Assembly (NCBI GenBank): GCA_003697105.1
Contig: RFFQ01000175.1
Span: 1 to 16,980, forward strand
Source: Gemmatimonadota bacterium
GTDB taxonomy: Bacteria > 4572-55 > J002
DNA: 16,980 bases
Reading direction: 5' to 3'
Shown one piece after another: positions 4,403 through 11,737 of the stretch. The first letter of the stretch is position 1. Each line of letters starts with the position of its first letter. The position numbers and the translations under genes are program-made. The notes beneath the pieces are model-generated. The model ran no database searches. It was not told the origin of the DNA and saw only the letters and a list, made by a program, of their open reading frames with translations.

Positions 4403-4774
4403 CTATTCCCCAATCAAGTTACGAATGCGTTCCAACACTTCATCCGCATCAAATGGTTTAATGATATGTCCATCCGCACCAATGCCTTTGCTGATCCGGT
4501 CATAAATCGGTTCTGATTTGGCGGTCAGCACAAGCACCGGAATATCTCGGGTTTCTTCATGTTCCCGAATAGAGTGGAATGCTTGATACCCATCCATTTT
4601 GGGCATCATAATATCTAAGATGATAGCATCTGGGGTTTCTTCAACGGCGGTCTTAACGGCTTCTTCTCCATCTGCCGCAGTAACCACGTCATAACCGTCG
4701 TCTTCTAAGAGTAATTTCAAGAGTTCGCGAATGTGTTCTTCATCATCCGCAATCAAAATCTTCTTTTTTGGCAT
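4403..4774 (-). CDS. Stand-alone CheY-like response regulator (receiver domain only)
   Basis: A 123-residue single REC domain. The acidic pocket is D10/D11, the phospho-acceptor is D54 (LDIMMPKMDG), the switch threonine is T84 (LTAKS) and the conserved lysine is K106 (KPF). There is no output domain, so it must act by protein contact, as CheY or Spo0F do, or pass phosphate on. The start is ATG at 4774, because AGAAAGG sits 8 nt upstream (4783-4789). The longer in-frame GTG at 4795 lies upstream of that Shine-Dalgarno. No histidine kinase is adjacent; the only one in the window is about 5 kb further right on the same strand. The gene has its own promoter and faces away from the 5011 gene. Confidence 0.95.
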   Translation of the reverse strand: MPKKKILIADDEEHIRELLKLLLEDDGYDVVTAADGEEAVKTAVEETPDAIILDIMMPKMDGYQAFHSIREHEETRDIPVLVLTAKSEPIYDRISKGIGADGHIIKPFDADEVLERIRNLIGE

Positions 4775-4782
4775 TAGACTAA

Positions 4783-4789
4783 CCTTTCT
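4783..4789 (-). promoter_or_regulatory. Shine-Dalgarno that fixes the response regulator start
   Basis: On the minus strand AGAAAGG lies 8 nt before ATG at 4774. It would be internal to the coding region if the GTG at 4795 were used, so it decides in favour of the shorter protein. Confidence 0.7.
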
Positions 4790-4836
4790 ATCCACAAATG
4801 AACAGATTAAACCGATCCGGCTTCAATGTTCATGAC

Positions 4837-5010: not shown

Positions 5011-5349
5011 ATGCCAAACCACCACCTGTGGATCGAATCCATTTTAGAAAATGAAGCCCTCACCGACGGGCTGACCGATACCGACGCCCAAATCCTAATC
5101 GATTGGGTAATTTCGCGGCTTAAAACCGCCCATTCAGAAACAGAAGCCGATCACTGCCGCCACCAAATGCGGTATCTAAGCAAAGCGACCCAAGCAATTT
5201 GGGGCAAAAGCAGTGAGAAAAAATGCCGGTTTTATCTGGGGAAGCTCTTTCCTGAAGCCCGCCTTTCGGAGATCCAAACGGCAACCACCACCCTCGCCAC
5301 GCCCACCGACGTATTAACGTACCTTTTGAACCATCTTGATGAGGCTTAA
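5011..5349 (+). CDS. Small helical protein of unknown function
   Basis: A 112-residue protein I do not recognise. It has no signal peptide or membrane segment, and its composition (charged, Leu/Ala rich, few Gly) suggests an all-helical cytoplasmic protein. Residues 38-55 carry a small cluster of His and Cys (TEADHCRHQM), with one more Cys in KKCRFYL, but the spacing is not a clear metal-binding motif. The ATG at 5011 has AGAGGTG just upstream, a good Shine-Dalgarno at short spacing, and a sigma70-like promoter lies at 4938-4966. It is the first gene of a group with the PLD lipoprotein, whose start follows its stop by one base, so the two are probably cotranscribed and coupled. Confidence 0.72.
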   Translation: MPNHHLWIESILENEALTDGLTDTDAQILIDWVISRLKTAHSETEADHCRHQMRYLSKATQAIWGKSSEKKCRFYLGKLFPEARLSEIQTATTTLATPTDVLTYLLNHLDEA

Positions 5350-5350
5350 G

Positions 5351-6502
5351 ATGAATATCACCAAGCGTTTACTGATACTTATCCTTCTGATCACGGTCTG
5401 GGGATGCCAGCCCCTGCCGGAACAGAACGCCCCCGCACATTCCGGCACAAATGAATCCCAAACAGAGACCACCCCGGAAAGCGTGGCATCCGAGAATACA
5501 CCCCCCGTTGATCAAGCACCGGCAGAATCTGCCCCAACGATTGAGGTCTTTTTTAGCCAAGTTGATGACGGTCCAGAAGCCGCCGCCGCCAACCCGAACA
5601 ATATCGATAAAAAATTAGTGGAAAAATTAGACCTCGCAAAAACATCCATTGATGCCGCGTTACATGAAATCGATAGTGAGCGCATCGCCGAAGCTCTGAT
5701 GCGTGCCAAAGAACGGGGCGTAATGGTCAGTGTGGTTACCGAAACGGATTACATGGACGAATTTTCAATTGAACAGCTTCAGGAAGCCGGTATCCCGATT
5801 GTGAATGATAACGGGCGTAGCGGCTTGATGCACAACAAATTTATTATCATTGATGGGGAATTTGTCTGGACGGGTAGCCTGAATACTACCGATAACGGCG
5901 CCAACAAAAACAATAATAACGGGGTGTTTATCCACTCCCCCGAACTGGCAGAAAATTTTGCCGCTGAATTTGAGGAGATGTTCAACAACCAATCCTTTGG
6001 GAAACGCTCTCCAAAGGAGATCCCCCACCCAGTGGTACAACTACCGGATGGCACGGAACTCCTCGTCCGATTTTCTCCAGAAAATGAGGTGGATCAACTC
6101 ATTATTGATGAAATCGGCACTGCCCACACCCAAATCCGATTTATGGCGTTCAGTTTCACCCATGATGGAATCGGAGACGCCCTGCTCCAAAAAGCGGCAG
6201 AAGGGGTGGAGGTGAAAGGGATTTTTGAAAAACGCGGCTCCACCACCCGTTACTCCGAATTGCCGCGCTTGTTGGAAGCCGGTTTGGATGTGCGTCAGGA
6301 TGGAAATCCCTATGTCTTGCATCATAAAGTGATTGTCATTGATGATCAAACCACCATTTTAGGATCATTTAATTTTAGCCAGAACGCAACCAAAACCAAC
6401 GATGAAAATCTGCTGGTGATTCGCCATAATAAAGCCGTCGCCGATCAATTTTTACAGGAATTTGAACGGTTGTACGCAATTGCCGCCGTACCGGCATCGT
6501 AA
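5351..6502 (+). CDS. Phospholipase D-superfamily lipoprotein (two HKD motifs)
   Basis: A 383-residue PLD-superfamily protein with both catalytic half-sites: H161-N-K163-(x4)-D168 with GSLN downstream, and H324-H-K326-(x4)-D331 with GSFN downstream. Paired HKD motifs form one active site through a phospho-histidine intermediate, used by phospholipases, cardiolipin synthases and Nuc-type nucleases. The GS-N follow-up and lack of other domains resemble the nuclease or unclassified PLD-like group, so the substrate (lipid or nucleic acid) is open. The N-terminus is a hydrophobic helix ending TVWGC, a lipobox with an unusual Trp at -2, then a Pro/Thr/Glu-rich linker to about residue 62. This implies lipid anchoring and catalysis outside the cytoplasm. 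ATG at 5351 is chosen because GAGG lies about 7 nt upstream and it gives a normal signal; upstream TTG (5336) and ATG (5339) only add residues before it. mscS follows after 32 bp. Confidence 0.88.
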   Translation: MNITKRLLILILLITVWGCQPLPEQNAPAHSGTNESQTETTPESVASENTPPVDQAPAESAPTIEVFFSQVDDGPEAAAANPNNIDKKLVEKLDLAKTSIDAALHEIDSERIAEALMRAKERGVMVSVVTETDYMDEFSIEQLQEAGIPIVNDNGRSGLMHNKFIIIDGEFVWTGSLNTTDNGANKNNNNGVFIHSPELAENFAAEFEEMFNNQSFGKRSPKEIPHPVVQLPDGTELLVRFSPENEVDQLIIDEIGTAHTQIRFMAFSFTHDGIGDALLQKAAEGVEVKGIFEKRGSTTRYSELPRLLEAGLDVRQDGNPYVLHHKVIVIDDQTTILGSFNFSQNATKTNDENLLVIRHNKAVADQFLQEFERLYAIAAVPAS

Positions 6503-7469: not shown

Positions 7470-8795
7470 ATGACCCTTGACCAGCGCTATCAGGAAATTT
7501 TAAACTATCTCTATTACGAAATTGGACACTTCAACGTCAAATTGGGGTTGGAGAATATCACGGAATTGCTACGACGGTGGGGAAATCCCCAAAATCGCTT
7601 TTGGAGCGTGCATGTGGCGGGTACCAACGGGAAAGGCTCGGTTTGTGCCACCACCCAAGCATTGCTCACTGCGGCAGGCTACCGGGTCGGGATGCTCACC
7701 TCACCACATCTCGTCGATTTTCGGGAGCGCATCCGGATCGGCAACCAACTGATTTCAAAGGCGGATGTGGTGCGCTGGATCGAGCGCCTCCGCCCCGATG
7801 TGGATGACATCGGTGCAACCTTTTTTGAGACTCTGACGGCTCTCGCTTATCTCTATTTCGCCGAAAATAAAGTAGATTACGCCGTGATTGAAGTTGGTTT
7901 GGGCGGCAGATTGGACGCCACTCGTTTAATCAACCCCGCCGTGACCGTCATCACCAATATTGCCCTTGACCACCAGCGTTTGTTGGGCGACACCGTGGAA
8001 AAAATTGCCTACGAAAAAGCGGGTATCATCAAACCATCTATTCCGGTGATAACTGCCGCCACCCAGCCCGAAGTGTTAGAGGTGATATGTGGCGTTGCTG
8101 CCGAAGTGGAAGCTCCCGTCATCCCGGTGCAACGCGCGGCAACCTGGGACAACATCTCCCTGATGCCCACGGGAACACAATTTGATTATCACCGCAATAA
8201 CCACCATCTGGAGCACCTCCAATTTGCTTTGCTGGGTGAACATCAGGTGATAAATGCGGTTACGGCACTTCTGGCGGTGGAACATCTTCCAAAATTGAAT
8301 TTGACGGAAACCACCATCCGTAAGGGTCTGCAAGAGACCCAATGGCACGGACGGTTGCACCGGATCCAACGGGACCCGTGGATTGTCACGGATGGTGCCC
8401 ACAATCCGGCGGGGATGATGACCCTCATCACATCCTTACCACACATTTTTACCTATGAGCGGTTGATCTGGGTATTCGGGGTACTGAAAGGGAAAAGATA
8501 CGAAGAAATGATGGCCCAGATGGAACCTATCGCGGCGGAAATCATCTGTACCCAAGCAGAAAGTGAGCGCGCGGTGGATTGGCAGCTCTTGACGGAAGAT
8601 GTGAGCCAATTGGTGGCATTGCCGGTGGTCGGCGCATCCCGCGTAGCCGAGGCAATCCAAATAGCGCTGGCAAAAGCCACCCCACAAGACCTCATCTGCA
8701 TTGCCGGATCGCTCTACATGGTGGGGGAAACGTTAGCCTATTTTAATCAAACCCCAGAGCAATTACTCTCAAATTCAAACATACTCACCCCGTGA
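7470..8795 (+). CDS. folC: Folylpolyglutamate synthase / dihydrofolate synthase
   Basis: A 441-residue Mur-ligase-family enzyme of the cytoplasm that adds glutamate to dihydropteroate and/or to tetrahydrofolates in an ATP-dependent reaction. Seen in order: P-loop GTNGKGS (51-57), the folate-loop region LTSPHLVDFRERIRI (about 76-90), the VGLGGRLDATR magnesium/ATP segment (about 142-152), KAGIIKP, and DGAHNPAGM of the C-terminal Mur ligase domain (about 309-317). Length is normal. No Shine-Dalgarno precedes the ATG at 7470, which stands only 42 bp after the terminator. A TACAAA at 7457-7462 is placed like a -10 box for a leaderless message, but no -35 box supports it. The CULT gene follows after 18 bp and is probably cotranscribed. 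Whether it has one or both activities is not decided by these motifs. Confidence 0.96.
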   Translation: MTLDQRYQEILNYLYYEIGHFNVKLGLENITELLRRWGNPQNRFWSVHVAGTNGKGSVCATTQALLTAAGYRVGMLTSPHLVDFRERIRIGNQLISKADVVRWIERLRPDVDDIGATFFETLTALAYLYFAENKVDYAVIEVGLGGRLDATRLINPAVTVITNIALDHQRLLGDTVEKIAYEKAGIIKPSIPVITAATQPEVLEVICGVAAEVEAPVIPVQRAATWDNISLMPTGTQFDYHRNNHHLEHLQFALLGEHQVINAVTALLAVEHLPKLNLTETTIRKGLQETQWHGRLHRIQRDPWIVTDGAHNPAGMMTLITSLPHIFTYERLIWVFGVLKGKRYEEMMAQMEPIAAEIICTQAESERAVDWQLLTEDVSQLVALPVVGASRVAEAIQIALAKATPQDLICIAGSLYMVGETLAYFNQTPEQLLSNSNILTP

Positions 8796-8811
8796 CCACG
8801 GCGGAGTCACG
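8791..8811 (+). promoter_or_regulatory. Short hairpin presenting the CULT gene Shine-Dalgarno
   Basis: CGTGAC (8791-8796) and GTCACG (8806-8811) pair over a 9-nt loop. The loop holds most of GGAG (8803-8806), the likely Shine-Dalgarno for ATG 8814, and the left arm overlaps the folC stop codon (8793-8795). Ribosomes finishing folC would melt it. A regulatory role is only suggested. Confidence 0.3.
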
Positions 8812-8813
8812 CC

Positions 8814-9215
8814 ATGCCAATTTGGAACGAACCCGCGACCCCAACGATTGCAACCCCGCACCGGCAGACATGGATGAAACCCCAAACGGAAATCCGGCCA
8901 GATGACTGGCTGTGTGCCCAATGCCGAGCCTTCATCACGTCCGAACGGGATCGATTTCTATACAACGGATTTAGTGAATTTGAATTTACCAACCCGGGCG
9001 GCTATACGTTTGGGATTATCACCTTTTCCCGCGCGCCGGGCTGCGTGGTGGAGGGTACACCCACCCTAGAATACACCTGGTTTGCCGGGCATACGTGGAC
9101 GATCTGTCTCTGCCGCGGGTGTGCCCTGCATCTGGGCTGGCGATACGATGGGCAATATCAATTTTTTGGTCTGATCCGGCGTCGCTTAATTCGGGCAAGC
9201 ACAATATTTAATTGA
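8814..9215 (+). CDS. Stand-alone CULT-domain protein (bacterial cereblon-type)
   Basis: A 133-residue single-domain protein matching the CULT domain, the thalidomide-binding part of eukaryotic cereblon, also known as stand-alone bacterial proteins. Zinc ligands are two CxxC pairs: C34/C37 (CAQC) and C100/C103 (CRGC). The cage of three tryptophans that holds cyclic imides is intact: W89 and W95 in TWFAGHTW (human SWFPGYAW, W380/W386) and W109 in LGWRY (human IGWKF, W400). The human Tyr384 position is His93. The fold start (CAQCRAFITSERD) and FTNPGGYTFGI segment also fit. There is no signal peptide, Lon domain or other partner domain, so it should be cytoplasmic. Ligand and role in bacteria are not established; binding of modified peptide ends (cyclic imides) or of uridine-like molecules has been discussed for the family. 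GGAG lies 7 nt before the ATG. It is probably cotranscribed with folC. Confidence 0.9.
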   Translation: MPIWNEPATPTIATPHRQTWMKPQTEIRPDDWLCAQCRAFITSERDRFLYNGFSEFEFTNPGGYTFGIITFSRAPGCVVEGTPTLEYTWFAGHTWTICLCRGCALHLGWRYDGQYQFFGLIRRRLIRASTIFN

Positions 9216-9238: not shown

Positions 9239-9835
9239 TCATGGCGTCGTATCCTTACCCGCCGGCGCTACAAACAACGATCCGAGCCGTAGTTTTTCGC
9301 CGGTGGTGGGTTCTTCCCGCAACAGTTCTTCCAATTCATCCACACTGGGCAGCTCCGCCAAATCCCGCAGACCGAAATGTTCTAAAAATTTAGGCGTTGT
9401 ACCGTACAACAACGGACGCCCCACATCATCGGACTTCCCTTGGATTTCGATCAGATTCAATTCCAGCAATTTACGGATGACACCGGAACTATCCACCCCC
9501 CGGATATGGGCAATTTCCGCGCGGGAGATGGGCTGTTTGTAGGCAATAATTGCCAATGTCTCTAACGCGGCAGGCGATAACCGCACGTTTTTAACCTGAG
9601 TATATAATTTTGCCACCCATTCTGAAAATGCCGGTTTCGTCATCAACCGGTATCCTTCCCCGACTTCCACAATCGAAAAGGCATGATCCGCATAATGCCG
9701 GTTGAGCGATTGAATTGCCGCCCGAATCGCCTCCGCGGATGTATCTTCCAAAAGCTGGTGCAAATCGGTAATCTTCAGGGCATTATCCGCCGCAAACAAG
9801 AGTGCTTCAATCGTTTGTTCTAAGGGTGTCAACAT
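9239..9835 (-). CDS. scpB: Segregation and condensation protein B
   Basis: A 198-residue kleisin-associated winged-helix protein that works with Smc and ScpA in chromosome condensation and segregation. The N-terminal helix pair (LEQTIEALLFAADNALKITDLHQLL), the strongly conserved SPAALETLAIIAYKQPISRAEIAHIRGVDS (about 87-116) and GRPLLYGTTPKFLEHFGL (about 139-156) are all typical, and the length is normal. GGAAG stands about 9 nt before the ATG. It lies 12 bp downstream of the histidine kinase gene on the same strand, so it is probably read from that transcript. The common partner scpA is not in the window. The gene converges on the CULT gene with 23 bp between stops and no obvious terminator. 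Confidence 0.96.
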   Translation of the reverse strand: MLTPLEQTIEALLFAADNALKITDLHQLLEDTSAEAIRAAIQSLNRHYADHAFSIVEVGEGYRLMTKPAFSEWVAKLYTQVKNVRLSPAALETLAIIAYKQPISRAEIAHIRGVDSSGVIRKLLELNLIEIQGKSDDVGRPLLYGTTPKFLEHFGLRDLAELPSVDELEELLREEPTTGEKLRLGSLFVAPAGKDTTP

Positions 9836-9847
9836 GGTCTGTTCTTC

Positions 9848-11737
9848 CTATCCTGAAGTGGGCAGATGCAAAATAAAGGTGGTTCCTTCGCCTTCCGTGC
9901 TTTCAACACGTAGTGTGCCGTTGTGTTCCAGCACAATTTTATGAACCAGTGCCAGTCCTAAACCAACCCCGCTTGCTTTGGTGGTAAAAAACGGGTTAAA
10001 AATTTTCGGCAGGATTTCCGCTGGAATCCCATGACCGGCATCGTGGATATGAAGTTCAATCAATTGCTGTTGGGGCAAGGATGTAGCCTGTATCCGAATG
10101 TGTGCGGGGTCACCGGTGCGGGCTTCAATAGCATTGTGGATCAAATTGAGGAAAACCTGACGTAACAAGTTTTCATCACCAGCCAGATGCGGTAAATCTG
10201 CCGGAATCTCCCGTTGAATGACCACCGGTTCCCGCGATTCAATTCCCTTGCACACCTGATCCAGAAGCGTCTCTAGGTTTACAGCGGTTAGGGTCAATTG
10301 GGAGGGACGGGCAAACGCCAGAAAGTCCCGCACGATTATTTCTTGCGTTGCTGCTTCCTTGAAGACGGCATCCAATAGCGCCCGGCGCGGGTCATCTTCC
10401 GCTAATTTTTTTTGCAACAATTTGGCATAGCCGATAATCGCCCCCAACGAATTCCGTAATTCGTGCGCGATACCGGCGGACATCTCACCTAAAGCAGAAA
10501 GCCGCTCTTTGAGGTTGATCTGCTCTTGCAAATGCTTGATCTCGGTGAGGTCGTTGATGAGTAAGGTTGCCCCCAACAGTGTACCGTGATCATTGTATAA
10601 GGCGGAAAGACTCACATCAACCCATATCGCTGGTTTATCCTCAAATTCCAGCAAAACCTCTTGATGTGCCAGAGGTTGATTTTCTGTTAAAATGTTCTCG
10701 ATGAGGGCTTGCAAAGCGGGATTTTGCCGGAAGAGTGTTGTGAAGTGTTGTCCTCGGGCAGCCGCTTCCGTTCTGCCTAAAATTGCTCCGGCAGTCCGGT
10801 TGAAAACCGTCACGTTGCCGGTGGTGTCAAAACTGATCACCCCACTGCCGATACTGCGCAAGATATAATCATTGTAATTTTCGATCCGTTCGGCGCGTTG
10901 TTCTGCCTGAGCGTACAGTTCTCGCAAGCGCTGTTCTTTCTCTTGCAGATCGGCAACCATCTCGCGGAAGGTTTCCAGCACAACGCGGAGGTCGGTCTCG
11001 TTGGTATCCACATGGCGTTCGCCACGTCCGGTGCGGTACTGGTGTGCTTCCTCCGACAGTTGCCGGATTGGGCGCACTGCCTGCCGGATAAACAAAAATG
11101 AAAGCCCTAACCCCACAATGATGCCGACAACCCAGATGATCAGTGTGATGCGCGTCAATAGATCAAGGTGGCGCACGTCACTAATCTCGATCTCCGTCTG
11201 GATAACCCTTTCAATCCGGTTGCTTTGGACATTCATGAGCGGGGTGTAATACGCACGATACCAAAGCCCCTGCACCGGATAGGATTTGGAAAACACCGCC
11301 AATCCTTCCCCCACATAAAAGCGTTGCTCCGCCGTCAACCCCGCCCAAACGGCGATAGAATCTCCCGAGTTTTGCCGGGTAGAGAACACCACGGTCTGAT
11401 TCAAATCCATGATCTGAATATGATCGACTAACGAGAGATAGCCATTTTCCGTGATGAACGTCACGAAGGGGTCAAGTTGATCGGGCGAGGGACTGGCAGT
11501 ACCCCGAAGGAGTGGCACGCGCAGGCTATATTCCCGAATCGCCGTCGCGACCGCCACCAGATTATCATTTTGGCGGGATTCCAACTGCTTCTTGGTCTGA
11601 AAGACGACATAAAACGTGATAAAGTTAATGGTCAGTAAAAACGCCATCAGCACCATCACCAAAAGGCGTAACCGGACGCCAAAATCGGTATAATCGCGGC
11701 TGAGTTGCCAGAGAGACGGTTTGGATTCGGGAGTCAT
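9848..11737 (-). CDS. Membrane sensor histidine kinase, HAMP-PAS-HisKA-HATPase (NtrB/AtoS-like)
   Basis: A 629-residue sensor kinase. TM1 is at about 22-45, a periplasmic sensing region at about 46-195, TM2 at about 196-217, and HAMP plus coiled coil at 218-288. A PAS domain follows at about 289-400, then HisKA with H425 in IAHELRNSLGAIIGYAKLL and the catalytic domain at about 515-627. The latter has N-box N535 (NLIHNAIEAR), G1 DAGHG (566-570), NPFFTTK and G2 GVGLGLALV. The H-box and TTK-x-GVGLGL pattern are those of NtrB/AtoS-type kinases that usually serve sigma54 activators. The signal is unknown. Start: AGGTGATG lies just before ATG 11737. No response regulator is next to it; the nearest is the single-domain one at 4403-4774. 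It lies 73 bp downstream of the 11811 gene, with scpB 12 bp behind. Confidence 0.95.
   Translation of the reverse strand: MTPESKPSLWQLSRDYTDFGVRLRLLVMVLMAFLLTINFITFYVVFQTKKQLESRQNDNLVAVATAIREYSLRVPLLRGTASPSPDQLDPFVTFITENGYLSLVDHIQIMDLNQTVVFSTRQNSGDSIAVWAGLTAEQRFYVGEGLAVFSKSYPVQGLWYRAYYTPLMNVQSNRIERVIQTEIEISDVRHLDLLTRITLIIWVVGIIVGLGLSFLFIRQAVRPIRQLSEEAHQYRTGRGERHVDTNETDLRVVLETFREMVADLQEKEQRLRELYAQAEQRAERIENYNDYILRSIGSGVISFDTTGNVTVFNRTAGAILGRTEAAARGQHFTTLFRQNPALQALIENILTENQPLAHQEVLLEFEDKPAIWVDVSLSALYNDHGTLLGATLLINDLTEIKHLQEQINLKERLSALGEMSAGIAHELRNSLGAIIGYAKLLQKKLAEDDPRRALLDAVFKEAATQEIIVRDFLAFARPSQLTLTAVNLETLLDQVCKGIESREPVVIQREIPADLPHLAGDENLLRQVFLNLIHNAIEARTGDPAHIRIQATSLPQQQLIELHIHDAGHGIPAEILPKIFNPFFTTKASGVGLGLALVHKIVLEHNGTLRVESTEGEGTTFILHLPTSG

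Follow-up and report, generated by a model that had tools for sequence, protein, structure and literature searches.

A CULT-domain gene encoding a protein of 133 amino acids was found at positions 8814 to 9215 on the forward strand of the window, the whole 16,980-nucleotide stretch of DNA that was analyzed. The gene lies 18 bp downstream of folC (7470 to 8795, forward strand), which encodes a Mur ligase family protein of the folylpolyglutamate/dihydrofolate synthase type, and 23 bp from the convergent scpB gene on the reverse strand (9239 to 9835). A probable ribosome-binding site was read in the GGCGGAG region (8799 to 8806, forward strand), and support for the start codon at 8814 comes from this GGAG, approximately 8 nt upstream, and from homologues in Ignavibacteria that are likewise exactly 133 amino acids long and whose ends align with those of the window protein. 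The base composition of the gene (GC, 0.54; GC3, 0.58) is near the range of its neighbors and carries no visible transfer signature, and promoter and terminator predictions near the gene showed no excess over chance. The source genome contains one CULT copy. Elsewhere, the window encodes a lone NACHT-type NTPase of 510 amino acids with no second domain found (129 to 1661), a stand-alone response regulator (4403 to 4795), a phospholipase D family protein with two PLD-like stretches and a likely lipoprotein signal, a Cys following a hydrophobic stretch (5336 to 6502), and, on the reverse strand directly behind scpB, a PAS histidine kinase (9848 to 11737).

The first CxxC zinc pair of the CULT protein (C34 and C37) was read at codons 34 to 37 (8913 to 8924, forward strand), and the cage with the second zinc pair, W89-F-A-G-H93-T-W95...C100-xx-C103...H106-L-G-W109, was located at 9078 to 9140 (forward strand) by DNA pattern and alignment. 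The cage tryptophans W89, W95, and W109 are accompanied by N60, P61, E86, and Y111, while H93 occupies the position of human Tyr384. The coordinates, the length, the folC gap, both cysteine pairs, the three tryptophans, and the histidine at the Tyr384 position are all as a first-pass annotation of this DNA had claimed. Both CxxC pairs are in register with those of MsCI4 from Magnetospirillum and are kept in all CULTs surveyed among the matches listed, with C34 and C37 invariant across 117 aligned sequences drawn from those matches. N60, P61, G63, G76, H106, F117, and L120-I121, none of which was required by the search pattern, are nearly invariant in the family and present in the window protein. 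A cage-plus-zinc DNA pattern occurred once in the window and in none of 200 shuffles, and across 386 genomes, nearly all from other lineages, the window gene was the sole match.

In a phmmer search of the PDB, the best match was MsCI4 (E value, 8.6e-19), followed by cereblon (approximately 1e-11 to 1e-13), a similarity well outside the range of chance. The protein scored 22.4 bits against PF03226 (Yippee/Mis18), below the Pfam gathering cutoff of 26.6; this family has a related beta-tent fold, and the three-tryptophan cage is a CULT feature. Since there is only this subthreshold Pfam score and no match in NCBIfam, standard annotation of the gene would probably be "hypothetical." No further Pfam domain was detected in the open reading frame between its stop codons, and the Pfam scan of the 133 residues found neither a Lon domain nor a DDB1-binding region, in agreement with the earlier description of a protein free of Lon and ligase-adaptor parts.

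AlphaFold2 was run with the window protein and 80 natural bacterial relatives as input, and the resulting model of the window protein had a pLDDT of 92.6. Superposition of such a prediction on known CULT structures had been proposed with the first-pass annotation; in VIA-align, ligand-bound MsCI4 ranked on top (Z score, 19.3), followed by human cereblon complexes (Z score, approximately 17.6). The MsCI4 alignments had an rmsd of 0.9 to 2.1 Å over 93 to 104 residues at 36 to 40% identity, the best 50 rows were CULT structures throughout, and Foldseek concurred with a probability of 1.00. The residues that contact the ligand ring in MsCI4 are Trp79, Trp85, Trp99, Phe77, Glu76, and Tyr101 (PMC8900816), which by alignment correspond to W89, W95, W109, Y87, E86, and Y111 of the window protein. 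Because every ring-contact position thus has a counterpart, "complete cage" is a fair description at the residue level. The retained Tyr111 is of particular weight: in MsCI4, Tyr101 contributes a third hydrogen bond, which increases affinity and has no counterpart in human cereblon. The backbone superposition implies that the side chains of W89, W95, and W109 would line one pocket. Sequence, fold, and residue comparison together support the earlier reading that the product of the window gene is a lone bacterial CULT domain whose thalidomide-type cage is complete at the residue level.

The nearest characterized protein, MsCI4 (MGR_0879, "cereblon isoform 4") of Magnetospirillum gryphiswaldense (PDB 4v2y), is likewise a bare bacterial CULT domain. 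It shares the fold of the window model (Z score, 19.2; rmsd, 1.5 Å), the zinc cysteines, the three tryptophans, the Asn-Pro hairpin, and the tyrosine at position 101 (Tyr111 in the window protein), with an overall identity of 38 to 46%, varying by alignment. From MsCI4 to the window protein, Tyr is replaced by His at position 93, the hairpin DHEH by FSEF, and the strand WCF by ITF. The thalidomide-binding domain of human cereblon shares the fold (Z score, 17.6) and the cage tryptophans (W380, W386, and W400); unlike the bare window protein, it sits in a 442-amino-acid ligase adaptor with a Lon domain, and it has Phe at the Tyr111 position and Tyr384 at that of His93.

A degenerate DNA pattern comprising the cage and the second zinc pair was searched in 84,980 species genomes and matched at least 117 stretches, 115 of those listed being CULT proteins. 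Two listed matches (L044 and L111) are not CULT proteins. The listed CULTs belong mainly to Thermodesulfobacteriota and Pseudomonadota, with others in Myxococcota, Acidobacteriota, Spirochaetota, Nitrospirota, Melainabacteria, and Ignavibacteriota. This taxonomic range is wider than that described in 2015, which covered mainly deltaproteobacteria, a few alpha- and gammaproteobacteria, and one spirochete (PMC4287342). CULT genes are thinly distributed: they occur in one of the two genomes examined from the window's own phylum, in 5 of 391 genomes of the class to which one of the closest homologues belongs, and in 1 of 386 genomes drawn mostly from other lineages. No relatives were found in plasmid, phage, and viral collections, so carriage by mobile elements is without support. 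The match in an Ignavibacteriota bin assigned to Stygiobacter (L035) has an aligned core matching the Magnetospirillum gryphiswaldense CULT; it probably lies on a contaminant contig and was excluded from the tree. Bacterial CULTs have been described since 2014 to 2015, and the window protein, although genuine, is an unremarkable addition to this known family.

The remaining point of interest is the protein's place in a distinct subfamily of the Ignavibacteria type, in which the surroundings of the cage are changed. In a tree built from few columns and weak at its deep forks, the window protein clusters with Ignavibacteriota homologues with support of 100/99, and the stem of this group measures 0.91 changes per site. 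The Ignavibacteria CULTs (L059, L071, L131, L132, and L133) are its closest relatives, with 132 to 133 amino acids and 47 to 53% identity. Like the window protein, they start with DW-C, lack the HxH pair and C70, and have Asn as the last residue of the C-terminal tail. The same His as H93 is present in four of the five. Most bacterial CULTs have the HxH pair and C70: among 117 aligned rows from the matches listed, His54 occurs in 90, His56 in 103, and Cys70 in 106. The window protein has S54, F56, and T70 instead, and both features are absent throughout the aligned members of its subfamily. The Ignavibacteria-type CULT at L133:6959-7357 has Asn-Tyr in its cage loop, where Gly-Tyr or Gly-His is otherwise seen. 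His at position 93 was also found in 15 of the 115 other listed CULTs, several of them distant in the tree, a count that is uninformative on further residues at this position because the search pattern allows only Tyr or His there. The exchange of His for Tyr384 is a recurrent variant and not peculiar to the window protein.

The first-pass annotation had taken the linkage to folC as a clue to function, with a folate or pterin ligand in mind, and had called for a survey of related genomes. That survey revealed no conserved neighborhood. Within three genes on either side, as far as the 8-kb tiles reach, a FolC-like protein was encoded at none of the 115 other listed CULT loci, nor was folC within three genes of CULT at three further Ignavibacteria loci. 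Gene settings differ among all five Ignavibacteria loci, with folC nearby in none, unlike the window locus. The search was sensitive, since the same query located folC elsewhere in all 12 CULT genomes tested (32 to 44% identity). On the complete chromosome of Desulfosarcina widdelii, the two genes lie near 0.82 and 7.25 Mb. The single other genome examined from the window's phylum, which is of the same class, carries folC between PBP2 and radical-SAM genes and scpB on a different contig, and it has no CULT. Among the loci surveyed, the adjacency of folC and CULT in the window is a one-off.

These results make it very improbable that FolC and the CULT protein act together on a metabolite of the folate, pterin, or glutamyl type. 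The 18-bp spacing on the same strand speaks for such a partnership, as does a 6-pyruvoyl-tetrahydropterin synthase (PTPS)-type gene directly downstream of CULT at three gammaproteobacterial loci of a separate lineage (L007, L020, and L081), the sole additional indication among the listed loci of a pterin gene in the vicinity of CULT. However, 64 other CULT genes, about half of the listed loci, lie within 100 bp behind a same-strand gene. Of these close upstream genes, 55 were scanned after the redundancy among the cobA-hemD and CysZ cases had been reduced by removing near-duplicates, and they contain 43 Pfam families, with no family in more than four. CULT genes thus often sit closely behind any neighbor, and the 18-bp spacing is as expected. 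With the folC neighborhood not conserved, the folate/pterin proposal loses its basis, an outcome that the first-pass annotation had itself named as removing the functional link.

Other neighbors recur among the listed loci, each bound to its lineage, and none is common across lineages. A cobA-hemD fusion (uroporphyrinogen-III methyltransferase/synthase) directly precedes CULT, often overlapping it, at nine Desulfobulbales-type loci (L010, L021, L024, L054, L069, L074, L078, L086, and L109), and a gene for a CysZ/EI24 membrane protein does so, often with a 4-bp overlap, at seven Desulfobacteraceae-type loci (L008, L013, L043, L061, L079, L084, and L098). A HAD hydrolase gene is a recurrent neighbor at five loci. 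The lack of a neighbor common across lineages argues against inferring function from any single operon, that with folC included.

The stand-alone CULT protein is a small, zinc-stabilized beta-tent; by homology, its three-tryptophan aromatic cage would accommodate one edge of a ring of the cyclic-imide or uracil type. Two hydrogen bonds from the backbone, at residues 87 and 89, would hold the ring, a five- or six-membered imide or a uracil, together with the hydroxyl of Tyr111. We consider it very likely (with a probability of about 85%) that the cage binds cyclic-imide or uracil-type rings, the cyclic-imide binding being inferred by homology. MsCI4 binds thalidomide and uridine with low micromolar affinity, and departure of the ligand unfolds one third of its domain (PMC4449219); in the window protein, ligand binding would probably order the cage half of the domain. 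As the protein lacks enzyme, Lon, and ligase-adaptor parts, its likeliest role would be that of a reader or scavenger of a cyclic-imide or uracil-type group in the cell.

C-terminal cyclic imides of damaged proteins are degrons of cereblon and have been described as its physiological ligand (review, PMC13001092). The native ligand that we favor here, speculatively and at less than even odds, is likewise a cyclic imide at the C terminus of a damaged peptide or protein. The PIMT gene, a possible aspartimide source, is present in the source genome, and PIMT was found in 22 of 24 genomes searched, a figure that has no matched baseline; the gene is also common in control genomes (8 of 14), and this co-occurrence is weak support for an imide ligand. 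Two CULT-bearing Melainabacteria genomes have no detectable PIMT, so that a PIMT-made ligand is not universal.

Alternatively, the native ligand may be uridine, uracil, or a related nucleobase, with the protein acting as a pyrimidine sensor or buffer. MsCI4 takes uridine like thalidomide, was cocrystallized with deoxyuridine, and does not bind thymidine or cytidine (PMC4449219), and PDB 4v31 is among the best fold matches of the window model; yet no pyrimidine gene stands out as recurring beside CULT at the 115 listed loci, and the authors of the MsCI4 study found no biological context for uridine (PMC4449219), and we regard a pyrimidine ligand as unlikely. The MsCI4 YW/AA mutant is binding deficient (PMC4449219), and by analogy with human Tyr384 and Trp386, on our own reading of the residue assignment, H93 probably replaces the Tyr mutated there. 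Because the window protein lacks both the HxH pair and C70, its ligand specificity may differ. A more radical reading, in which the subfamily has lost or changed imide binding and His93 and the lost HxH pair mark a different ligand, could draw on the long, well-supported stem of the clade, on the loss of HxH and C70 throughout, and on His93 in all but one member. But every direct ring-contact position and Tyr111 are retained in the window protein, most of the 15 other CULTs with His at position 93 keep one or both HxH histidines, and the human domain binds thalidomide yet has no HxH pair, which makes such a loss or change quite improbable. That the window protein and its Ignavibacteria kin, with the HxH pair and strand Cys lost and the cage-loop Tyr mostly His, form a distinct subfamily whose ligand specificity is unlike that of MsCI4 and cereblon is a tentative and rather doubtful proposal.

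Bacterial CULT proteins serve as a working model for the binding of thalidomide-type drugs, and with our survey the family gains members from Ignavibacteria and from a phylum that has been little sampled. With its naturally altered cages, the Ignavibacteria-type subfamily lends itself to experiments on the residues that determine ligand preference.
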